The translations under genes and the position numbers were made by a program. Below are positions 10,610 to 47,834 of a stretch of 64,000 nucleotides of DNA, in pieces; within the stretch, counting starts at the first letter, position 1; every line of letters starts with the position of its first letter. Below the pieces are notes generated by a model. The model ran no database searches, was not told where the DNA came from, and saw nothing but the letters and a program-made list of their open reading frames with translations. The stretch is taken from contig DUMA01000032.1 of the NCBI GenBank assembly GCA_012840135.1, forward strand, positions 1-64,000. Direction: 5' to 3'. The stretch is from Thermoanaerobacterales bacterium (lineage in GTDB: Bacteria > Bacillota > Thermosediminibacteria > Thermosediminibacterales > Tepidanaerobacteraceae).

Positions 10610-11857
10610 TTACTGTTTTGTAAGCCTGGGCAGATGAACGGTGAATGCGGAGCCTTTTTGAAGTTCGCTTTCGACGGATATAAAGCCTCCATGCATCTCA
10701 ATTATTGTTTTTGCCAGGGCAAGGCCTATACCTGCGCCCTGCGTATTTTGTGAAAACCTGCTTCGATAAAATCTTTTAAAGATATGGTTTAGATCATCCG
10801 GATGTATGCCTTCGCCGTTATCCCGCACGGTTATCTTTACCATCAAAGGTGTTTCCTCAATGAGCGCCGAAATATGGCCTCCTGCTGCAGTATGCTCCAC
10901 GGCGTTCTTTATAAGGTTGCTCAGGGCTTCGAGCATCCACTCTCTGTCGCAGGGATAATAAACTTTTCCGCCGGCCTCCAGCTCAAAGGTTTTTCCTTCT
11001 CTTGCGAGCCTGGTTTCAAAGCTTTCAGCCGCCTGCTTAATAATGTCATTTAAAATATGGTTACCTTTATTGAGTTCAATAATTCCCGCATCCAATTTGG
11101 CCATCTTTAAAAGATTGGCTATCAGGGTTTGCATGCGGCAAAGCTCCTTTTCGCTTTTATTTAAAAAGCTTATTATGGCTTCATTTTCGACATTTTCATC
11201 TTTCATAATTTCGTTATACATCATAAGTGCCGATAGAGGAGTCTTTAGTTGATGTGACACATTTTCCAGGATATCCTTCAGGAAGGTCCTGTCATGTTTT
11301 TCTTTTTCGATGTGGGCGTGCAGCGCCGAAGTCATGTTATTTATGGATGCCGCCAGTCTTGACAGGCTTCCTTCTTCCGTATCCTCAAGCCTTGTCTCAA
11401 TTTGTCCCCTCATTATTCTGTTTATATCCTCATTATACCCGTCTATTTTTTTATAATGGGCTGCCAGAAACAGATAAATCGAAAGCAATATTGCGGCACC
11501 CATAAAAAAGGAAAAAATGAAATTTGTTGCCATATTCGACTTATAAAACGCGTTTGCCCTGGATATCAAATGAATTTGCACACTGTTTATATAGCCTGCC
11601 CTTTCAAGCAGCTTTCTGCCTTTGTCAAGATCGGTCCCCGTTTTGGCCGATGTGAAAATGGCCGGAATCTGAGAAGCCATTTCAGGATACTTCTGGCTTA
11701 AGAACCCCGCAAGCTCATAGTCGTGCTGTATCAATTCATTTTTAAAACGGACGGCACTCATATAGCTAATTAGCTGGGCCAGCATGAATCCCAGAAGCAA
11801 AACCGATATTATAAGTATCAAAAAATTTTTTGCGCTTTTATTTATCAGAAGGTCCAT
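10610..11857 (-). CDS. Sensor histidine kinase
   Basis: A membrane kinase of about 415 residues: transmembrane helix 1 (about 10-30), an outside sensor of about 80 residues, helix 2 (about 110-130), a HAMP-like linker, a dimerisation domain with the phospho-accepting His in ENVSHQLKTPL, and an ATPase domain with the N box (NLIKNAVEH), G1 (DNGEGI), F box and G2 (GAGIGLALAK). ATG 11857 follows GAGGTG and overlaps the response-regulator end by 20 nt, so the two are translationally coupled. It phosphorylates the regulator encoded just upstream. Confidence 0.92.
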   Translation of the reverse strand: MDLLINKSAKNFLILIISVLLLGFMLAQLISYMSAVRFKNELIQHDYELAGFLSQKYPEMASQIPAIFTSAKTGTDLDKGRKLLERAGYINSVQIHLISRANAFYKSNMATNFIFSFFMGAAILLSIYLFLAAHYKKIDGYNEDINRIMRGQIETRLEDTEEGSLSRLAASINNMTSALHAHIEKEKHDRTFLKDILENVSHQLKTPLSALMMYNEIMKDENVENEAIISFLNKSEKELCRMQTLIANLLKMAKLDAGIIELNKGNHILNDIIKQAAESFETRLAREGKTFELEAGGKVYYPCDREWMLEALSNLIKNAVEHTAAGGHISALIEETPLMVKITVRDNGEGIHPDDLNHIFKRFYRSRFSQNTQGAGIGLALAKTIIEMHGGFISVESELQKGSAFTVHLPRLTKQ

Positions 11858-12551
11858 GGCAAACACCTCGTACAATGTTCCATTTATATCCCATTCCCCT
11901 GACAGTGGTTAAAAAAGACGGGTGTCTGGGATCATCCTCTATTTTTTCACGCAGCCTGCTGATGTAAACGGCCAGAGTATTGTCATCAACAAAGCTTTCA
12001 CGGCAATCCCACAGCTTTTGCATTATCTGCTCCTTTGACAATATGACTTTCGGATTTTGCATGAAAAGGCAAAGCAGCCTGTATTCGGCGGATGTAAGTT
12101 CCAGGTCGATTCCGTTTTTTATCACCCTTCCTTCCAGGAGCTTCACCGCAATCCCGTTTGCCTTCAATTCCGCAGCCTGCTGATTTGCCGGATCGCAGCG
12201 CCTCAGCACGGCGTTTATCCTGGATATGAGCTCATTCAGTTTGAAGGGCTTTGTGATATAGTCATCGCCACCTATATCCAGGCCCATAACGATATTTACC
12301 TCCTCATCGGAAGCCGTCAGGAAAATGATCGGAATGTCCGATACTTGCCTGACCATTTTGCAGACATCAAAACCGCTGCCGTCTGGAAGCATTAAATCCA
12401 GCAGAATCAAGTTATATTCATTCTGATCAATACAGGCTCTGGCTTCCTTTACTGTCCTTGAAACGGTCACATCAAAGCCATGCTTGGAAAGGGAAAATTT
12501 CAAGCCTTCGATCAGGCTTAAATCATCTTCCACCAACAATATCTTTCTCAT
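11838..12551 (-). CDS. OmpR/PhoB-family response regulator
   Basis: A 237-residue regulator. The receiver domain (1-120) has the acidic pair VEDD, phospho-acceptor Asp in LILLDLMLPDG and Lys in TKPFK. The C-terminal winged helix (about 140-225) carries the family segment LTSAEYRLLCLF and the DNA-recognition region. It probably controls the ABC transporter genes downstream. The start is ATG 12551. Confidence 0.93.
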   Translation of the reverse strand: MRKILLVEDDLSLIEGLKFSLSKHGFDVTVSRTVKEARACIDQNEYNLILLDLMLPDGSGFDVCKMVRQVSDIPIIFLTASDEEVNIVMGLDIGGDDYITKPFKLNELISRINAVLRRCDPANQQAAELKANGIAVKLLEGRVIKNGIDLELTSAEYRLLCLFMQNPKVILSKEQIMQKLWDCRESFVDDNTLAVYISRLREKIEDDPRHPSFLTTVRGMGYKWNIVRGVCHGPSDK

Positions 12552-12607
12552 AGCCGTTCCTCCATGTCTCTCTGCGGGTATAATCTGGAATTATTGGCTG
12601 ATATATG

Positions 12608-12635
12608 TTTACTTTTTTAAATTTTGTGCTATAAT
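12608..12635 (+). promoter_or_regulatory. Promoter of the candidate antitoxin RNA
   Basis: TTTACT (12608-12613) and a perfect TATAAT (12630-12635) are 16 bp apart on the plus strand. No open reading frame follows before the strong terminator at 12692-12735, so the product would be a small RNA. Confidence 0.6.
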
Positions 12636-12641
12636 ATAGTC

Positions 12642-12735
12642 AGAGGTAACCGGACCCGCAAAAGTGCGGTTGCCACATAGGGTAATTAAAGAATAATCAC
12701 CCGCTGGGGCATAGCAGGGTGATTATTTTTTTTCC
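12642..12735 (+). ncRNA. Candidate antisense RNA of a type I toxin locus
   Basis: A predicted transcript of about 94 nt. Its 5' part folds into a hairpin with GGTAACCG pairing to CGGTTGCC around a 14-nt loop. Its 3' end is a strong intrinsic terminator with 11-bp arms and eight T. It overlaps the end of the toxin frame on the other strand, in the convergent arrangement of the txpA/RatA and par (fst) loci. No known riboswitch pattern was recognised. Existence and function are inferred from the promoter, terminator and arrangement. Confidence 0.5.
12692..12735. terminator. Bidirectional terminator shared by toxin and antisense RNA
   Basis: Arms AATAATCACCC and GGGTGATTATT give an 11-bp stem with a 14-nt loop. 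On the plus strand eight T follow (strong); on the minus strand only CTTTAATT follows (weaker). The toxin stop codon (12697-12699) lies inside the stem. Confidence 0.85.
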
Positions 12736-12845
12736 TTTACTTTTGGCCTTAATCAGCACGACAATTAAGGAAATCAGCGATACGGTAAGCATAGAGGATG
12801 CAATCATTAATGATAGAGCCTCGTATACCCATACCGCACCACCTC
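12697..12845 (-). pseudogene. Holin-like/TxpA-BsrG-type small membrane toxin, start codon out of frame
   Basis: A frame of about 45 codons encodes WVYEALSLMIASSM, a hydrophobic helix, then the basic tail KAKSKGKK: the layout of the TxpA/BsrG and putative holin-like toxin families (short, one membrane helix with a 'YEALSLM' start, basic C-terminus). The strong AAGGAGGTG site leads to an ATG at 12832 that is in a different frame and yields an unrelated 27-residue peptide. A one-base shift just after that ATG would restore MWVYEAL. It is either a dead toxin or unusually initiated. Expression would depolarise the cell membrane if active. Confidence 0.6.
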
Positions 12846-12870
12846 CTTCCTTCTGATATAAAGGAGGTGG
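12839..12870 (-). promoter_or_regulatory. Hairpin that hides the toxin ribosome-binding site
   Basis: In the toxin mRNA CCACCTCCTT (12870-12861) pairs perfectly with AAGGAGGTGG (12848-12839), which is the Shine-Dalgarno sequence. Ten contiguous base pairs around a 12-nt loop would shut off translation. Several type I toxin mRNAs are known to bury their ribosome site in this way. Confidence 0.75.
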
Positions 12871-12909
12871 CAACCACACCCTGCTCATCCAGTTACCTGA
12901 AATAATGGT

Positions 12910-12940
12910 ATCATATTCTACATTTTTATTCAATTTGCAA
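12910..12940 (-). promoter_or_regulatory. Possible toxin promoter
   Basis: On the minus strand TTGCAA (12935-12940) and TATGAT (12910-12915) are 19 bp apart. The spacing is long, so this is weak. Transcription would begin about 5 nt before the leader hairpin, mirroring the antisense promoter. Confidence 0.35.
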
Positions 12941-12954
12941 TTTATTTTTTCTTT

Positions 12955-13165
12955 CAAACAAGTAGAGGAAAATAGCCGGCCGGTCACACGACACTCCAGG
13001 CAGGCAAGGCACTCGGCAATGAGCGGCGCTTTTACATCGGTCGCCGCAAGCGGCGTCAACCCGAATTTCTTAAACTTGTCCACCTCCGCACCAGAGATTG
13101 CACAGGGCAAAAAAGAGCGGAAAGCTGGAATAAATACAGAGGCCTTTTGACCAAAGCGGCAGTCA
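12955..13165 (-). pseudogene. Flavin reductase family fragment
   Basis: The minus-strand frame contains SGAEVDKFKKFGLTP, VKAPLIAEC and LECRV, the middle part of the flavin-reductase-like (flavoredoxin) FMN-binding domain. The N-terminal part upstream is shortened and not readable as the usual domain. The C-terminal part runs out into unrelated sequence before the toxin leader. No start with a ribosome site is present. It is a decayed gene, which marks this stretch as an insertion/deletion zone. Confidence 0.6.
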
Positions 13166-13249
13166 TCTTCATCGTAGCCACATGGATCTTAGTAGCCAAG
13201 GTCGAAGCTGTCAGAGTGCCGGTGATGAACTTTTAAGCATTATGATGTA

Positions 13250-13378
13250 ATGTTTTCCCTTTACACCGACGATGGTGAAGAAATAAGAGAAGTATCGGGA
13301 AAGGTAACGCTGGACGGGAAGCTGATTTTTTCCAAAGAAGAGACAGGCAGTCTTCATCTTAAAAAATGCATAGAATAG
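13250..13378 (+). pseudogene. Orphan 3' coding fragment, unknown
   Basis: A 42-codon plus-strand frame encodes a hydrophilic peptide (FSLYTDDGEEIREVSGKVT ... LKKCIE) with normal coding composition, but no ribosome site. It looks like the tail of a lost gene. Not recognised. Confidence 0.3.
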
Positions 13379-13553
13379 AGCAGCAATATTGATCCCAATA
13401 TAAATTATCCACACAGTGTTCATTTTGGTCAACCCCAGATGACCGCCAAAAATACTCCCGATTAAAAATCCGGCAATGCAGGAACAGCAGCACCGGATAG
13501 GGCCTGACATAATTCGGCAAATCAAATAGCGTCAGCCCGGATCTTTTTGTCAT
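13376..13553 (-). pseudogene. Small two-helix membrane protein, frameshifted
   Basis: An ATG frame at 13553 (MTKRSGLTLFDLPNYV) continues sensibly only if the frame changes near 13500, giving GPIRCCCSCIAGFLIGSIFG and then TVWIIYIGINIAALFYAFF, two membrane helices with a cysteine cluster (CCCSC). Each half alone ends in low-quality sequence. The family is not recognised. It lies in the debris tract between rnr and the two-component genes. Confidence 0.35.
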
Positions 13554-13629
13554 TATAAGCGCACTCCTTCACACTTTGAGATAAGGATTTGAGATGTTGT
13601 CAACAACTCCGTCCCTCTGACACTCATAG

Positions 13630-15762
13630 CTACGGCGCTTGAGCCTTTTTGGCTTCTACCAGTTCAAAATCTATCTGCCTCTCGGGCACATTTACTTTCG
13701 ATACTCTGACCCTGACAGCATCTCCAATGCGAAATACCCTGCCTGTGCGCTCGCCCCGCAGAGTAATACTCTTTTCGTCAAAGTGATAGAAGTCATCTTC
13801 AAGGTTGCTCACATGCACCAGACCTTCCACGGTGTTTTCCAACTCCACAAACAGGCCAAAGGAAGTAACTCCGGAAATAACCCCTTCATATGTGTTGCCT
13901 ATGCGCCTGGCCATGTACTCGGCGATTTTCAAATCCGTGCTCTCCCGCTCGGCTTCCTCGGCTATGCGTTCCCGCTCGGAAGAAATCTTTGCCACCCGGG
14001 CTACTACTTTGTTGAGCTTTTCCTGTCTTGCCTCATCCAGCCTACCTTCCAGGTGTTCCCGAATGATCCTGTGTATCATTAGATCGGGATAGCGCCTGAT
14101 GGGGGAGGTAAAATGGGTGTAAAAATGGGCGGCAAGACCGAAGTGGCCCAGGTTTTCTTCGCTGTAGCGTGCCCGTTTGAGAGACCTTAAAAGCACTGTA
14201 TTTACCACGCGTTCTTCGGAACGGCCCTTCACTTTTTCCAGAATATCCTGCAGTGCCTTGGGCTTTATATTTTTTATGTCCTTAATGGTATAGCCCAGGT
14301 TATACAGAAATTCCCTGAGAGAGAACATTTTCTCCTCGTCGGGCACCTCGTGGACTCTGTAGACGAAAGGTGCCTTTAGCCAGTACATGTGCTCGGCTAT
14401 TGCCTCGTTGGCTGCCAGCATAAATTCCTCGATGATGCGATTGGCGATTCGCCTCTCCTCCTTCACTACATCCACCGGGCTGCCGCTTTCATCCAGTATT
14501 ACCTTTGCTTCTTCGATGTTAAAATCTATGCTTCCCCTGGAAAACCGCTTTGCCGTAAGTTTTCTGGCCAATTCCTCCATGAGCCTGAAGTCTTCCACCA
14601 GATATTCATAGCGCTTAATTGCGTCAGCATCATTTTCCTCCAGGATTTTCGTGACTTCGGTATATGTCATCCTTTCGCAGGTCTTTATCACCCCCGGAGT
14701 TATCCGGTAACTCTTTACATCCGCATTTTCGTCAAAGTCTATGATAATGCTCATCGTGAGACGATCGGTCCTGGGGTTCAAGCTGCAGATGCCGTTGGAA
14801 AGCTTGGGCGGAAGCATGGGTATTACTCTGTCCACAAGATAGACGCTGGTGCCCCTCTTCATGGCTTCAATATCCAGGGGGCTTTTTTCCCTGACATAGT
14901 AGCTGACATCGGCTATGTGAACACCCAGCCGGTATCCGTCTTTTGTGCGCTCTATCTCCACCGCATCGTCCAGATCTTTTGCATCCTCTCCGTCTATGGT
15001 CACTATCTTCTTATCCCTGAAATCCTCCCTGCCCTTCAAATCCTCGGGCCTTACTTCATCGGGTATACTTTCCAGCTGGTTCAATACTTTTTTGGGAAAT
15101 TCCAGAGGAAGGTCGTACTTTTTTATGATGGAAAGCACATCTACGCCTTTTTCCCCTTCATACCCCAGAACTTCCACCACTTCACCCTCGGGGTTGCGCC
15201 TTTTTTCAGGCCACCGGGTTATTTTCACAACCACTTTCTGTCCGGATTTTGCACCCATGGTTTGATCCTTTGGAACGAATATGTCATAATAAAACCTTTT
15301 ATCATCGGGTATCACAAATGAAAAATGCCTGTCCCTTTCAATGGTGCCCACCACCTTTTTGCTGGCCCTCTTCAGAATTCTTATCACTTCACCTTCGGTT
15401 TTACCCTCATGTCTTGCGGGCAGCTTGGGACGGACTACGACTTTGTCGCCGTGCAAGGCACCGTTCAAATCCTCACGGCTTATATAGATATCATCTATAT
15501 CCTGATTTTCAGGGATTAAAAAGGCATAACCTTTAGGATGGCCTTCGATCATCCCCACTACCAGGTTCATTTTTTCCGGGATACCGTAGCGGCCCCGGCG
15601 GGTTTTTACTACAAGGCCTTCCTTCTCCATATAATACAATGCTTTAAGTAAAAGGTCTAACTCCCCAGCCTCAATATTCAGTGCCTGTGCCAGTTCACTT
15701 TCCGTCATGGGTTTATATGCTTCCTGTCTCATGAATTCTATGAGCTGTTCTTTAAATGGCAT
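13630..15762 (-). CDS. rnr: Ribonuclease R
   Basis: A 710-residue 3'-5' exoribonuclease that degrades structured RNA and works with SmpB/tmRNA in clearing faulty messages. Order: winged helix (1-70), two cold-shock/OB domains (about 75-225), the RNB catalytic domain with the Asp cluster in TIDGEDAKDLDDAV, and a C-terminal S1 domain (YEGVISGVTSFGLFVELE). ATG 15762 follows AGGAGGCACAGC; the 19-codon longer frame lacks a site. The usual neighbour smpB is 6.5 kb downstream. Confidence 0.96.
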   Translation of the reverse strand: MPFKEQLIEFMRQEAYKPMTESELAQALNIEAGELDLLLKALYYMEKEGLVVKTRRGRYGIPEKMNLVVGMIEGHPKGYAFLIPENQDIDDIYISREDLNGALHGDKVVVRPKLPARHEGKTEGEVIRILKRASKKVVGTIERDRHFSFVIPDDKRFYYDIFVPKDQTMGAKSGQKVVVKITRWPEKRRNPEGEVVEVLGYEGEKGVDVLSIIKKYDLPLEFPKKVLNQLESIPDEVRPEDLKGREDFRDKKIVTIDGEDAKDLDDAVEIERTKDGYRLGVHIADVSYYVREKSPLDIEAMKRGTSVYLVDRVIPMLPPKLSNGICSLNPRTDRLTMSIIIDFDENADVKSYRITPGVIKTCERMTYTEVTKILEENDADAIKRYEYLVEDFRLMEELARKLTAKRFSRGSIDFNIEEAKVILDESGSPVDVVKEERRIANRIIEEFMLAANEAIAEHMYWLKAPFVYRVHEVPDEEKMFSLREFLYNLGYTIKDIKNIKPKALQDILEKVKGRSEERVVNTVLLRSLKRARYSEENLGHFGLAAHFYTHFTSPIRRYPDLMIHRIIREHLEGRLDEARQEKLNKVVARVAKISSERERIAEEAERESTDLKIAEYMARRIGNTYEGVISGVTSFGLFVELENTVEGLVHVSNLEDDFYHFDEKSITLRGERTGRVFRIGDAVRVRVSKVNVPERQIDFELVEAKKAQAP

Positions 15763-15841
15763 GCTGTGCCTCCTGTTTTTATAAATTACTTCCTGACTTA
15801 TTTTATGCTTTTCTGGCATATTTTACAAGCTATGTAAAGGC

Positions 15842-16753
15842 TTATCTGAAAATATTTTTGTCTCTTTCGTGCCGGTTACTATCATAATATCTTACAATGC
15901 CATTGGTTATAGCCTGAGCCGTTCTTTCTTTAAAAACCGGGCTCCGGAGCCAGCCTTCTTCGACAGGGTTTGATATAGTGCAGACTTCAATGGTGACAAA
16001 GGGAATACTAGCCATCGACCCTATGGCGTCGACTACCCCGGTAAGGCTTTCTTCCTTTATCCCCCTGTTTTCCAACTTTAATTTTTTGTAAAGTTCTTCG
16101 AGAATAAGCCCGGCCAGGAGTTCGCCCGGCTTGGAATGATACGATCCACCGGCGCCACAGGCATCTTTATTCCTGACCCAGCGGGTATGAATACTTATCC
16201 ACAGGTCAGCTTCCAGTAAACCTGCAACTTCCAGCCTGTCTTTTAAACCCAGGGAAATGTCTTTTTCTCTTGTCAATACGGCCCGGGCTCCTGTTCCAAT
16301 AATTTTTGACTTGAGAAAACTTGCAATATGCATTACTACATTTTTTTCCAGGAGATTTATATAGCCCCGGCGACCCGTATCGCCTCCTCCGTGGCCCGGG
16401 TCAATTACTATCAATCTATCCTTCATAACTTTTTTTATATATCCCCTGTCAAAACATATCTCAAGCCTATCCGGAATGCCCCGGGTTCTCTTTAATCGGT
16501 ATGAGGCCGGATGCTGCAAAGATACTGAAACCATTGGCTTCTCATCCTGTTGTTCGACTCTTACGGTGTTTATCAGACCATCATAAATGCTTATGGTATC
16601 TTTCGCCATAATAAGTTCCCCGTCCAATATCAGCTCATAGATATTATGTGAAGATTTGCGAACGGTATGTGAAAGCGGTGCCGTGGATTCCATTATCAGT
16701 GTCGAAAAATCGGGGTCGGTTCTCACATATACATTTGTCAGACCGCGTTTCAT
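15842..16753 (-). CDS. N-acetylmuramoyl-L-alanine amidase (Amidase_3) without signal peptide
   Basis: A 303-residue protein. Residues about 1-115 are a beta-rich AMIN-like region and about 125-295 an Amidase_3 zinc hydrolase domain: first zinc His in VIDPGHGGGDTG, Glu in LLEKN, second His in SIHTR, and catalytic Glu in TIEVCTISNP. The usual SIHAN is SIHTR and the usual VE(T/M)GFLSN is VEVCTISNP, so it is a diverged member. The first residues (MKRGLTNVYVRT) show no signal peptide or helix, so export is unclear. ATG 16753 follows AGGAGGG. Confidence 0.85.
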   Translation of the reverse strand: MKRGLTNVYVRTDPDFSTLIMESTAPLSHTVRKSSHNIYELILDGELIMAKDTISIYDGLINTVRVEQQDEKPMVSVSLQHPASYRLKRTRGIPDRLEICFDRGYIKKVMKDRLIVIDPGHGGGDTGRRGYINLLEKNVVMHIASFLKSKIIGTGARAVLTREKDISLGLKDRLEVAGLLEADLWISIHTRWVRNKDACGAGGSYHSKPGELLAGLILEELYKKLKLENRGIKEESLTGVVDAIGSMASIPFVTIEVCTISNPVEEGWLRSPVFKERTAQAITNGIVRYYDSNRHERDKNIFR

Positions 16754-18311: not shown

Positions 18312-18333
18312 AAAAAAGTAACGCATCTTTTCT

Positions 18334-18379
18334 CCCTCTCATATTATATTTTGTAAAATCAGATGAGAGGGGTTTTTTT
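18334..18379 (+). terminator. Terminator that abuts the pdaD start codon
   Basis: CCCTCTCAT (18334-18342) pairs with ATGAGAGGG (18363-18371), followed by seven T that end directly at the pdaD ATG (18380). The 3' arm GAGAGGGG is also the pdaD ribosome-binding site, so folding would block both readthrough and initiation. Confidence 0.75.
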
Positions 18380-18841
18380 ATGCTGCCAATGCCAACAAAA
18401 TACAGGATGGTAGCGGGTAGTTCGGAAGGAGCTACTGAACTCAATGCCTTCGATGGTGCGCTGCTTTCGGCCGGAGCTGGAAACCTTAATCTCCTCCGGG
18501 TTAGCAGTATTTTACCTCCAGGTGCGGTATATGATGAAACTCTGGTTATACCTCCGGGGAATCTGGTACCCGTAGCCTATGGTTCCATCGTGAACAGCAG
18601 GCCCGGGGCCGTCATATCTGCTGCGGTGGCGGTAGGAATCCCGGAAGACGGTGATTACGGCGTCATAATGGAGCTTTCCGGAGAATTTGACAGGTTCACT
18701 GCCGAAAGCAGGATAAGGCAGATGGTGGTGAATGCCTTCAAAATTAGAAACAAGCCTCTGGCCGACGTAAGAATCTGTTCTGCCGAGCACATGGTGGATA
18801 AAATCGGTTGCGCCTTTGCAGGAGTTCTTCTATGGTATTAA
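18380..18841 (+). CDS. pdaD: Pyruvoyl-dependent arginine decarboxylase
   Basis: A 153-residue proenzyme that makes agmatine from arginine, the first step to polyamines. The self-cleavage site is the Ser-Ser in RVSSILPPGA, whose second Ser becomes the pyruvoyl group; PPGAVYDE and PGAVISAAVAVG match the family. It is a compact alternative to PLP-type SpeA. The ATG at 18380 is placed 8 nt after GAGAGGGG, inside a terminator-like hairpin. No other polyamine gene is adjacent. Confidence 0.9.
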   Translation: MLPMPTKYRMVAGSSEGATELNAFDGALLSAGAGNLNLLRVSSILPPGAVYDETLVIPPGNLVPVAYGSIVNSRPGAVISAAVAVGIPEDGDYGVIMELSGEFDRFTAESRIRQMVVNAFKIRNKPLADVRICSAEHMVDKIGCAFAGVLLWY

Positions 18842-43578: not shown

Positions 43579-44088
43579 TTAATGTGTCTCTACATCCTTT
43601 GCGCCATTTTTCCTCATTATGGTGGCGGCATTGCCCACTTTTTGTTCATGGGCCCTAACCGCTGCCAGTATCTTGCCCTTTTTAACTTCACCTTCATAGT
43701 ACCGGCCTCTTTCCTCGGGGATTCCCCAATCGATCAGACCTCCCGCAACTCCGCCGGTGGCGGCCCCAGAGATCAAACCAGCTATGGGACCTGCCGCGAT
43801 GATCGGTCCCATGCCCGGCACAGCTAAAGCGCCGGCTCCAAGAGCAAGTCCCGCAAGACCCCCCAGAACTCCTCCCGTAGTGGTGCCGTCAGCTACGGTG
43901 CCCATGCCCAAAGTTTCATCATCTTCGTCGCCTCCACCATTTGCGTTGGGTTTTCCGCTGTTTCCATCGCCGCCATTCTTTGCCACAATAGATATTTCAT
44001 TGGTATCAAAGCCTGAATTTCTCATCTGCGATACTGCCTTTTCAGCCTGTTCCTTGCTGTCGAATACCCCTATAACAGTCTTTACCAT
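43579..44088 (-). CDS. General stress protein 17M-like, glycine-rich
   Basis: A 169-residue protein. The N-terminal 40 residues (VIGVFDSKEQAEKAVSQM) resemble the YflT/general-stress-protein-17M domain. A disordered Gly/Asn/Asp segment follows, then a glycine/alanine-rich hydrophobic hairpin (about 80-125, GGVLGGLAGLALGAGALAV) of glycine-zipper type, and a C-terminal repeat of the first fold (KILAAVRAHEQKVGNAATIM). ATG 44088 is at a normal distance from GGAGGA. Role unknown; it may insert in or associate with membranes. Confidence 0.75.
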   Translation of the reverse strand: MVKTVIGVFDSKEQAEKAVSQMRNSGFDTNEISIVAKNGGDGNSGKPNANGGGDEDDETLGMGTVADGTTTGGVLGGLAGLALGAGALAVPGMGPIIAAGPIAGLISGAATGGVAGGLIDWGIPEERGRYYEGEVKKGKILAAVRAHEQKVGNAATIMRKNGAKDVETH

Positions 44089-44149
44089 TCGAAACATTCC
44101 TCCTCATTTAAAGTTAAGGTACACACCTCTCTTATGGGGGCAGATGTCA

Positions 44150-44383: not shown

Positions 44384-44971
44384 GTGGCTGAAAAGAACGA
44401 CATAACTCAAAAGAGCAAGCAGGATAAGACCATGAGTGAGATCAGCGAAAGGCTCGGGACGGAAACCGTAAATCAAATCCAGGATATAGTAAACCAGCAG
44501 CGTCAGCAGAATACTATCCAGTATCAGAATGCTCAGCACAAGCAATTCTCAACCAGTGTGGAATCTCTCGTAAACTCCGCCCGCGAACAACAGATGGCAT
44601 CGGAACAGCAGATTCAAAGCACCTTGAATCAGGCTTCTACCAGCCTCATGGATGCCAGAAGGCTGGAAAATCTTTTCAACAGTGCCCAGCAGCTCCAGCA
44701 GGCGGCTCAACTCGGCATTTCAAACCTTCAGATGAATGCAAAACAGTACAAACAGACCATTAATCAGATGGAAAAAGACTGCCATGAACAGCAGGTCGCC
44801 ATGGATATGCAGGTGATCCAGTCCATGCAGCAGGCTGTCTCGGCTCTAGCCCAGGCTCAAAACGCCATCCTGCAAAGCCAGACCATAAATAAGATGTTCG
44901 ATTCTATAACAAAATGCGAGGATAGCCTTACACAAATAGAACAAATGGGGCAACCCACCGCTACCATGTAA
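44384..44971 (+). CDS. Gln-rich coiled-coil protein of unknown function
   Basis: A 195-residue hydrophilic protein, unusually rich in Gln (more than 30 residues), predicted to be one long helix with coiled-coil pattern (about 25-190) and no signal or membrane part. It starts with GTG 44384 after AAGGAGGAAAT. Two Cys lie at about 132 and 180. It is convergent with the calcium-repeat/SPOCS gene. The length and composition suggest a coat-like or scaffold protein, but no family is recognised. Confidence 0.7.
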   Translation: MAEKNDITQKSKQDKTMSEISERLGTETVNQIQDIVNQQRQQNTIQYQNAQHKQFSTSVESLVNSAREQQMASEQQIQSTLNQASTSLMDARRLENLFNSAQQLQQAAQLGISNLQMNAKQYKQTINQMEKDCHEQQVAMDMQVIQSMQQAVSALAQAQNAILQSQTINKMFDSITKCEDSLTQIEQMGQPTATM

Positions 44972-45080: not shown

Positions 45081-46604
45081 TCAATCATCATGTTCATAAT
45101 ACTTATCGTGGTACTTGTCATGATATTTGTCATGACACGGGTCGTGCCACTCATCGTGATTCTTGTGGTGATAGCCGTCGTCATCCCAGCATGGAGATGC
45201 AAGTTTTACCAGCATCTCGAACAGGATTGTAACCTTTATTCTTCTGGGGCTTACCAGATCCACATTGATATGTTCCACTTTAAAGAAAACCAGGGCTTCC
45301 ATCCCCGGATCGGCACCATGCAGGTGAACAAATTGCAGGAACGGAAATGTCGCTTCAAAGAAATGCACCGGCTGAGAGGGAAGTGCCGCCACATAAAGTA
45401 TTTTTGCATTCACTTGTCCATCCACGACGACTTTATCGCAGAGCACCTTTACTTCATCTACAGTAAAAGTCGCCCTGGCTTCCACCCCTCTTTCGGCATC
45501 GGGCTTGCCGGCAGGAATTTCCACGGTGTCCTGCACTATTGCCTGTATCCTGCCCACCCATAATTTTCCGCGCTTTGCATCCCGGCGGGCTTGCATCACA
45601 TATATATAGCCGTATACCGTGCCCAGGCATATTTCTCCCAGACCTCTTTGGTTCAATTCACCGGCTTCGACGCATATGACACCATTGGGCACCGTTTGTT
45701 TCCACTCCAGGATAATGCTTTTAGCCTTCCATCCGTAAATATATACGGTGTTCAGGCACACGATCACCAGTTCCTTTTGTCCATCTCCATCCACATCGAA
45801 TACAGCCACATCCTTGGGATCCTGGTCTAGAGCAGGGCATCCCCACATGATATCATAGGTTCCGCCTTTTGAGCGCAGGACCTTTACCGTGCGATCTATG
45901 CAGTCAAAGATTATCTCATCCCTTCCATCGCCATCGAAATCATCCACTACCACAAAATCTTTATCGGCATCGGGAATACTGCCGCTCCATTTTTCCACTC
46001 TTTTTCCATCTTTAAAACAAAGCACATAGATAATACCGCCTCCGTGGCCACGGCACTTTAAAACAACCTCCACCGCCCCGTCGCCATCGGTATCACCGGC
46101 GTCCACGCAATGCACATTATACCTCAAAACTTCCGACCTTAAAAACACCAGCTTGCCGTCAAAGCGGAATAAATATATTTTCGTTTTTCCCCTCACTGCC
46201 GCCACAATTTCCGATTTGCCGTCCCCATCAATGTCGGCAATGGTTATCGATACAACCTCTCCATCCACAGCCGTGTTTTCCGCTATTCTTATCAGTTCCC
46301 GGCCCCTCATCCTGTAAATACAAATGCTTCCGTAGCTTCCTACTATTATTTCATCTCTGCCGTCCCCATCGATATCGCAAGCTTTTATGCAGCGGACATC
46401 TTCCTTCCCCATATTGATTCTTGCCAGCTGGCGGTAAGTATTATTTTCAAACCTGAATACATAAAGGTTCGAATTGCCCGAAGTGGCTGCGGTGGTCCCG
46501 GCTATGATATTTATCCTGCCATCGCCGTTTACATCTCCGAGAGCTATCCTGATCTCCTGCCCCAGGTCCTTGCTGGCCCACTCAAGCTGATAAGCTTGCC
46601 GCAT
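45081..46604 (-). CDS. FG-GAP/VCBS calcium-repeat protein with SPOCS domain and His-Asp-rich tail
   Basis: A 507-residue protein. Residues about 15-330 carry at least six DxDGDGxxE calcium loops (DVNGDGR, DIDGDGRDEI, DIDGDGKSEI, DTDGDGAVEV, DFDGDGRDEI, DVDGDGQKEL), i.e. a beta-propeller of FG-GAP type. Residues about 355-470 match a SPOCS/DUF3794 domain (DKVVVDGQVNAKILYVA ... FFKVEHINVDLVS), which occurs in spore-morphogenesis proteins. The last 40 residues are rich in His, Asp, Lys and Tyr with HDKY repeats, likely metal-binding. No signal peptide is seen. A spore-surface role is inferred. Confidence 0.85.
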   Translation of the reverse strand: MRQAYQLEWASKDLGQEIRIALGDVNGDGRINIIAGTTAATSGNSNLYVFRFENNTYRQLARINMGKEDVRCIKACDIDGDGRDEIIVGSYGSICIYRMRGRELIRIAENTAVDGEVVSITIADIDGDGKSEIVAAVRGKTKIYLFRFDGKLVFLRSEVLRYNVHCVDAGDTDGDGAVEVVLKCRGHGGGIIYVLCFKDGKRVEKWSGSIPDADKDFVVVDDFDGDGRDEIIFDCIDRTVKVLRSKGGTYDIMWGCPALDQDPKDVAVFDVDGDGQKELVIVCLNTVYIYGWKAKSIILEWKQTVPNGVICVEAGELNQRGLGEICLGTVYGYIYVMQARRDAKRGKLWVGRIQAIVQDTVEIPAGKPDAERGVEARATFTVDEVKVLCDKVVVDGQVNAKILYVAALPSQPVHFFEATFPFLQFVHLHGADPGMEALVFFKVEHINVDLVSPRRIKVTILFEMLVKLASPCWDDDGYHHKNHDEWHDPCHDKYHDKYHDKYYEHDD

Positions 46605-46743
46605 CCTATCCCCTCCTTCTCGAAACCATTAATCTCCTTAATATAATATTCCCGGCGAGGGGATATGGTTCATAGCGAAGGCCCGAGATCAAAGGCCAGC
46701 GGCATGGCTGCCGAAAAGAGCAGATTTTTTCACTGTCGTCATA

Positions 46744-47757
46744 TTAAACAAGTGAATGCTGCACCATGTATTCCGCTATCTGCACCGCATTGTAAGCCGC
46801 TCCCTTTCTTAAATTGTCGGCCACGATCCACAGGTTCAGGCCACAATCGATTGAAAAATCTTCCCGAATCCTGCCAACATAGACATCATTTTCCCCTGAA
46901 ACAGCTGCTGGGAGCGGATAAATCCTGTTTTTGGGATCATCCACCACTTTCACTCCGGGAGCCTTGGATAAAATGCTGCGGGCTCCATCGGCAGTTAGCT
47001 TTTCGACCGTTTCGATATTTACCGCTTCGGAATGGCAGTTAAAAACTGGAACCCGCACAGTGGTAGCCGTCACCGCTATGCTTTCATCACCCATAATTTT
47101 CTTTGTCTCTCTCACCATTTTCCATTCTTCCATACTGTAGCCCGTATCATCAAATACATCTATGTGGGGCAATACGTTAAAAGCAATGGGATACGGATAA
47201 ACCCTGGGTTCAGGCATATCGCCGTTTAAGATCTTTCCCGATTGGAGTTTCAATTCCTCTATGGCATCCACACCTGTCCCCGACACGGCCTGGTATGTAG
47301 ATACCACCACTCTTTTTATCCTGGCCTTTTCATGAATCGGCTTTAAAACCACCACCATCTGGATGGTGGAACAATTGGGATTGGCAATAAGTCCTTTGTG
47401 CCGGTGAATATCCCCGGGATTCACCTCCGGAACCACCAGAGGTACATCAGGATCCATTCTGAAGGCACTGCTGTTGTCGATGACCACGGCTCCCCTCTTT
47501 ACAGCTTCGGGCGCCAGCTCTTTGCTCACTTCATTGCCGGCGGAGAATAGAGCTATATCTATTCCATCAAAAGCCGAAGGTACGGCTTCCTCCACCTTTA
47601 TTTTCTCACCCCTGAATTCCACCGAATGGCCGTTAGACCTGGCAGAAGCCAGAGGTAAAATTCTTTTCACAGGAAAATTGCGCTCCTGCAAAATCTTGAT
47701 CATGGTCTGACCTACCGCTCCGGTAGCTCCCACTACTGCCACATTGTAACTTTTCAT
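46744..47757 (-). CDS. asd: Aspartate-semialdehyde dehydrogenase
   Basis: A 337-residue NADPH enzyme that reduces aspartyl phosphate on the path to lysine, threonine, methionine and spore dipicolinate. The cofactor loop is VVGATGAVGQTM, the catalytic Cys129 is in ANPNCSTIQ, and a typical GTGVDAIEEL follows. ATG 47757 is 6 nt behind GGGGTG; the in-frame GTG at 47766 overlaps that site. It has its own leader and is separated from lysC by a terminator. Confidence 0.95.
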   Translation of the reverse strand: MKSYNVAVVGATGAVGQTMIKILQERNFPVKRILPLASARSNGHSVEFRGEKIKVEEAVPSAFDGIDIALFSAGNEVSKELAPEAVKRGAVVIDNSSAFRMDPDVPLVVPEVNPGDIHRHKGLIANPNCSTIQMVVVLKPIHEKARIKRVVVSTYQAVSGTGVDAIEELKLQSGKILNGDMPEPRVYPYPIAFNVLPHIDVFDDTGYSMEEWKMVRETKKIMGDESIAVTATTVRVPVFNCHSEAVNIETVEKLTADGARSILSKAPGVKVVDDPKNRIYPLPAAVSGENDVYVGRIREDFSIDCGLNLWIVADNLRKGAAYNAVQIAEYMVQHSLV

Positions 47758-47834
47758 TTCAGACACCCCTTGTCAAATATAAAATGCGAGAATTTGATGA
47801 GCAGCCTCACTCATCATTATATGAAAAATATATT

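Follow-up and report, generated by a model that had tools for sequence, protein, structure and literature searches.

The window, a stretch of DNA of 64,000 nucleotides, carries on its minus strand (45081-46604) a gene whose product joins a SPOCS domain to an FG-GAP beta-propeller and to a tail rich in histidine and aspartate, which raises the question of what such a protein does. The initial annotation proposed that this protein and its convergent Gln-rich neighbour were both structural parts of the spore surface or of a metal-storage layer. The evidence gathered here argues for a spore-coat building block and not for a metal store, since the gene is missing from a close relative that no longer forms spores, to judge by its lost sporulation genes (G012).

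The open reading frame starts with ATG and encodes 507 aa. Pfam matched FG-GAP_3 (E=2.7e-28) and FG-GAP (E=3.2e-13) in this protein above the curated cut-offs, with 98.8 bits vs a cut-off of 26.9 for the FG-GAP family match, and the several repeats and the seven-bladed fold agree with membership of this family. A single copy of the SipL/SPOCS domain (PF12673) was matched at residues 370-451 (E=7.9e-20; 71.3 bits vs a gathering cut-off of 23.6). The AlphaFold model, whose input alignment comprised 23 sequences, presented a mean pLDDT of 88.4 over the whole protein and mostly over 90 in the propeller. In this model, residues 4-340 (45585-46595, minus strand) form 28 strands arranged in seven four-stranded blades, and residues 349-469 (45198-45560, minus strand), which enclose the Pfam core, form six long strands, so that the SPOCS domain noticed initially is real by both the Pfam match and the predicted fold. 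The Foldseek matches of the propeller included BBS2/BBS7 of the BBSome, ITFG2 of KICSTOR and integrin alpha, with E values down to 3e-15. The best of them, BBS2/BBS7 and ITFG2, are likewise seven-bladed intracellular platforms that scaffold complexes; however, they are eukaryotic and lack SPOCS, and this fold similarity is not evidence of shared function. A PDB sequence search with the window protein retrieved only weak matches, to FG-GAP proteins and integrins. As the initial annotation had stated, there is no signal peptide, nor a membrane segment or hydrophobic N-terminus, the maximum 19-aa Kyte-Doolittle mean within the first 60 aa being 0.56.

The combination of domains had been considered rare, and it is indeed uncommon, as a profile search aligned both domains end to end in 15 of the 399 genomes of the phylum, but it is not unique to the window genome. 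Full-length orthologs were found in every genome of the same family (Tepidanaerobacteraceae) except G012, the copy of G005 being cut by a contig edge. Beyond the family, in the same order or class, full-length orthologs were found in G014 and G023 and more distant ones in G024 and G025, the latter partial and at a contig edge. The named relatives, which locate the window within Tepidanaerobacteraceae, include Tepidanaerobacteraceae bacterium A05DMB13 (79%) and Tepidanaerobacter sp. EBM-38 (63%). The best conserved part of the ortholog alignment corresponded to the SPOCS domain and its preceding linker, and the open frame and collinear architecture were kept in many genera, at identities as low as 38%, as well as in distant families. 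This conservation already refutes the view of the fusion as a chance juxtaposition or an annotation artefact, which retains virtually no probability. A C-terminal LysM-type region followed SPOCS in all seven distant members among the 15, scoring above the Pfam cut-off in four of the six that were scanned and just below it in the other two, and no LysM was found in the window protein by Pfam or in the near orthologs by alignment. Because of these regions, FG-GAP-SPOCS-LysM is, judged by sequence, the other form of the propeller-SPOCS family. The near and far propeller forms also grouped in a tree of SPOCS domains, with modest support (92/71) and at a meeting of long branches.

In Clostridioides difficile, SipL is composed of three DUF3794 domains and a LysM that binds SpoIVA (PMC6436350), and the SPOCS domain of Bacillus subtilis SpoVID contacts CotE and SafA (PMC10867305). 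Like SipL (CD3567), the window protein has SPOCS and no signal peptide, and in the distant members of its family SPOCS is immediately followed by a C-terminal LysM. Unlike SipL, it has one SPOCS domain instead of three and an N-terminal FG-GAP propeller, and the C-terminal LysM is lacking in the window clade. The window genome encodes a separate, ordinary SipL of three SPOCS domains and LysM on another contig (L110:4884-6521). The likeness to SpoVID, also a coat morphogenetic protein bearing SPOCS, is one of domain content, SpoVID having a LysM too; in contrast to the window protein, it has no propeller and its SPOCS is N-terminal. It was also observed that the SipL of the window genome (contig C28) lies in a cluster of multi-SPOCS proteins of 635, 697 and 551 aa (L110:6581-8488, 11682-13775 and 14479-16134), all of them propeller-free.

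Regarding the gene neighbourhood, the reported convergence with a Gln-rich protein was confirmed: the corresponding gene (44384-44971, plus strand; 195 aa, 40 of them Q, without Pfam family) faces the propeller gene and is kept beside it, and is divergent from a gene encoding a YflT-domain protein (43579-44097, minus strand; 172 aa; Pfam YflT, 2.3e-7). Upstream and co-directional lies asd (46744-47766, minus strand; Pfam Semialdhyde_dh), a possible source of read-through. In most loci the order rpoN, YflT-like gene, converging Gln-rich gene, propeller gene, asd and aspartokinase is conserved, and asd adjoins the propeller gene in most orthologous loci. In relatives, two asd copies (~57% alike) flank the aspartokinase gene, and the window seems to keep one of them (46744-47766; cf. 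L111:10428-11441).

The genome G012, which belongs to the same genus as two carriers and is 99% complete in 9 contigs, lacked SpoIVA, SpoIIID, SpoVAC/AEB and every SPOCS domain. In this genome, rpoN was found directly beside asd, exactly the three intervening genes (propeller, Gln-rich and YflT-like) being gone, and asd was kept despite the missing sporulation genes. The propeller gene is thereby restricted to genomes with sporulation genes through the co-absence in G012, which represents one loss event; the same architecture was looked for in non-sporulators and not found. All three genes are kept in G010, and the three-gene block is a candidate sporulation module that is testable in Tepidanaerobacter. 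T. acetatoxydans Re1 has been described as spore forming (PMC3587937). At the level of the phylum, SpoIVA was found in 14 of the 15 propeller-SPOCS carriers vs 336 of 399 genomes overall (84%), an association that is neither discriminating nor significant; since so many genomes have SpoIVA, this test adds little. The only carriers without a SpoIVA match were the incomplete genomes G009 (68%) and G144 (80%). In Thermosediminibacteraceae, the Gln-rich and YflT-like genes persist and deoC occupies the position of the propeller gene. Because members of this family that have sporulation genes mostly lack the propeller gene, its distribution indicates that it is accessory to sporulation and not essential. 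Near the Gln-rich gene of Thermosediminibacteraceae lacking the propeller gene, a small protein without Pfam family was noticed (L154:7368-7763), whose N-terminus is rich in H, D, K, Y and C (DYKDCPDYHDHKHYHDHKHEHY); no homolog was found in the searched stretches of the window's own genome and of the sister genome.

A promoter of the sigma-E or sigma-K type had been envisaged for the propeller gene. A sigma-K-like promoter was found at 46642-46670 (minus strand), formed by AACC (46667-46670), a spacer of 16 nt and AATATTATA (46642-46650), which carries 9 of the 10 sigma-K consensus letters (shuffle P 0.025). Sigma-K was the best match in the window and in three close relatives (9/10, P 0.025-0.06), but not throughout, as the AC of the -35 is absent from the Tepidanaerobacter-type orthologs, which keep the -10 half (GAATA.TATA-type). 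This half is conserved in most orthologs, and the GAATAnTATA-type element was invariant in 11 aligned upstream regions. In the control scan, the upstream regions of SpoIVA and SipL matched sigma-E (12/14 letters, P ~0.005-0.035), except for one SpoIVA, in agreement with the sigma-E dependence of both genes in C. difficile (PMC3789822). The SipL control regions also matched sigma-K, and the scan does not cleanly separate both mother-cell sigmas, so that the promoter of the propeller gene is sigma-K-like but not proven. Promoters for sigma-E, sigma-F, sigma-G, sigma-A and sigma-H were also considered for the propeller gene and gave no consistent match; for sigma-F/G, nothing beyond chance was found upstream of it. 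The Gln-rich and YflT-like genes presented sigma-F-like upstream motifs in several relatives, which are weak in the window.

The same upstream region holds a possible second level of control. The Shine-Dalgarno (SD) arm GAGGGGATA (46607-46615, minus strand) can pair with TATCCCCTC (46657-46665, minus strand), an anti-SD arm located in the promoter spacer, upstream of the putative start site. A pyrimidine arm complementary to the SD arm immediately precedes the start element in most orthologs, and the two arms co-vary and stay complementary, as in the window (TATCCCCTC/GAGGGGATA), in L012 (TATCTCCCTCCT/GGGAGGGAGATG) and in L121 (15 bp). The evidence for this pairing is good but not conclusive, since the shuffle P of single loci lies anywhere between 0 of 300 and 0.39 and the compared sequences are related to each other. 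The anti-SD arm would be present only in read-through RNA, as a transcript starting after the -10 would lack the 5′ arm; read-through RNA from asd would thus remain untranslated, with its ribosome-binding site paired, and the sporulation transcript would be translated. We infer such an RNA lock from the arrangement of the arms in the DNA. When 62 SD-bearing ORFs of the window genome were compared for such complementarity, the propeller gene came third, with yabG and spoIVA among the first five. In 1.2 Mb of a sister genome, an anti-SD arm was found inside a sigma-K-like spacer at 12 genes vs 5.8 expected from random placement (maximum 12 in 200 placements), an enrichment that is only suggestive. 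A hairpin lock against read-through has been proposed for B. subtilis sigG, in which an arm restricted to the read-through RNA pairs with the ribosome-binding site and the gene's own transcript lacks the arm (PMC5942855). The propeller gene differs from sigG in being a putative coat gene placed after asd, with the arm in the promoter spacer, and its lock is a prediction only.

The propeller-SPOCS protein is best read as a late mother-cell scaffold or adaptor of the spore envelope, of a SipL-related design without the LysM anchor, and this reading is considered probable. The SPOCS domain otherwise occurs in coat morphogenetic proteins, which argues for a spore-surface role, as do the LysM with which distant orthologs end, as SipL does, the absence of the propeller and Gln-rich genes where SpoIVA, SpoIIID, SpoVA and all SPOCS were lost, the sigma-K-like promoter of the window clade, and the absence of a signal peptide. 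We infer from these features the time and cell of its expression, its location, its layer and its partners. Expression would take place at a late stage of sporulation, in the mother cell. Its SPOCS domain would act as a docking module onto other coat proteins, and the seven-bladed propeller would offer a rigid platform for further partners, as do the FG-GAP-like propellers found inside the cell in BBSome and KICSTOR. Since the window clade has no LysM anchor, the protein would depend for its recruitment on proteins that had reached the spore earlier, presumably joining a layer formed by SpoIVA and the genome's own SipL. The same feature speaks against the coat reading, as a protein without LysM would have no direct SpoIVA anchor. 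As to the proposal that the propeller and Gln-rich proteins are both parts of the spore surface, this neighbour is conserved and co-lost in G012, but the Gln-rich promoter looks sigma-F-like; because it is of the forespore type and not of the mother-cell type, the two proteins may not lie in one layer.

Of the original alternatives, the spore surface thus remains as the best reading and the metal-storage layer was not borne out. Storage or buffering of Ca2+ or Zn2+ in the spore could be suggested by the calcium-type loops and by the tail of the window protein. Six such loops were found (46518-46535, 46359-46376, 46218-46235, 46077-46094, 45924-45941 and 45780-45797, minus strand), starting at residues 24, 77, 124, 171, 222 and 270; they are not all DxDGDG as first described, five being of this type and one DxNGDG (DVNGDG), and a seventh position (residue 316, ELNQRG; 45642-45659, minus strand) is degenerate, the blades numbering seven, not six. 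The disordered tail (residues 473-507; 45084-45188, minus strand) contains HDKY three times, with 8 H, 10 D, 5 Y and 4 K in 35 aa. However, FG-GAP loops are structural sites that bind about one ion per blade. Although D/N at positions 1, 3 and 5 of loops 2-6 was kept in 12 of 12 near orthologs, only 2-6 of the 6 far members keep it, distant members having partly lost the loops. The tail, present in the window protein as claimed, proved to be lineage-restricted: just four of the aligned proteins have it, and most orthologs, one of them 86% identical, lack it. Metal storage was rejected as very improbable on these grounds, a non-conserved tail and variable loops, and the calcium sites would rather be structural, stabilising the rigid platform.

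The joint loss of the three-gene block in G012 could also be explained if the protein acted in the forespore with the Gln-rich and YflT-like proteins, as a sigma-F/G module and not as a coat protein, and the sigma-F-like motifs of both neighbours in several relatives are in line with this. For the propeller gene itself, however, sigma-F/G matches do not exceed chance, those SPOCS proteins that have been characterised function on the side of the mother cell, and the neighbours persist without the propeller gene in Thermosediminibacteraceae, which makes this explanation unlikely. Still less likely is a general cytoplasmic scaffold unrelated to sporulation and transcribed with asd, a possibility raised by the fact that asd immediately precedes the propeller gene in the same orientation in most loci; the propeller gene is absent where sporulation genes are absent and asd is kept, it has its own conserved start element, the SD-complementary arm would silence read-through, and SPOCS is known from sporulation proteins. 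The coat-scaffold reading therefore remains the preferred one.

The domains of this protein are known singly, but their combination, the relatives that bear LysM and the module deleted as a whole seem not to have been described in the searched literature, where no paper connects FG-GAP with the spore coat and those in which it occurs alongside endospores appeared irrelevant. Little is understood of how SPOCS works in the assembly of clostridial coats, and a protein that keeps one SPOCS, sometimes LysM, and has swapped the remainder for a propeller offers a natural domain-swap experiment on SipL. In a bolder and rather doubtful extension, FG-GAP-SPOCS(-LysM) proteins might form a second class of clostridial coat hubs, in which a calcium-stabilised propeller replaces the repeated SPOCS, the LysM members being anchored on SpoIVA and the LysM-less ones adding a later layer, and several late sporulation genes of the order (the propeller gene, yabG and others) might carry an anti-SD arm in the spacer, which would confine translation to transcripts started at the sporulation promoter. 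If real, the spacer-embedded arm would be a simple and general way of silencing read-through RNA until the sporulation promoter fires.

Arms of this kind were also observed at other genes. In the window, the gene for a pyruvoyl-dependent arginine decarboxylase (18380-18841, plus strand), beside an amidase_3 gene, has upstream of it, at 18319-18372, the sequence AACG-N16-CATATTATA, a nearly perfect promoter of the sigma-K type; in its spacer, TCCCTCTCAT shows complementarity to ATGAGAGGGG of the Shine-Dalgarno region. On contig C28 of the same genome, yabG (L167:7154-8017) presents CACA-N16-CATATTATG, and the CCCCCCT arm within this spacer is complementary to AGGGGGG, the SD sequence; the layout is the same as that of the propeller gene. 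The strongest SD-complementary arm of the set, a perfect 11-bp one (TCTCCCCCTTT/AAAGGGGGAGA) around an AT-rich element, belongs to a serine-protease-like gene (L167:10008-11012; L110:2009-3013). A sigG-like gene (G001:C1:1390944-1391717) also carries a perfect 11-bp arm over the SD (AAACCTCCCCC/GGGGGAGGTTT), and the read-through lock of B. subtilis sigG seems to be kept in the order to which the window belongs.
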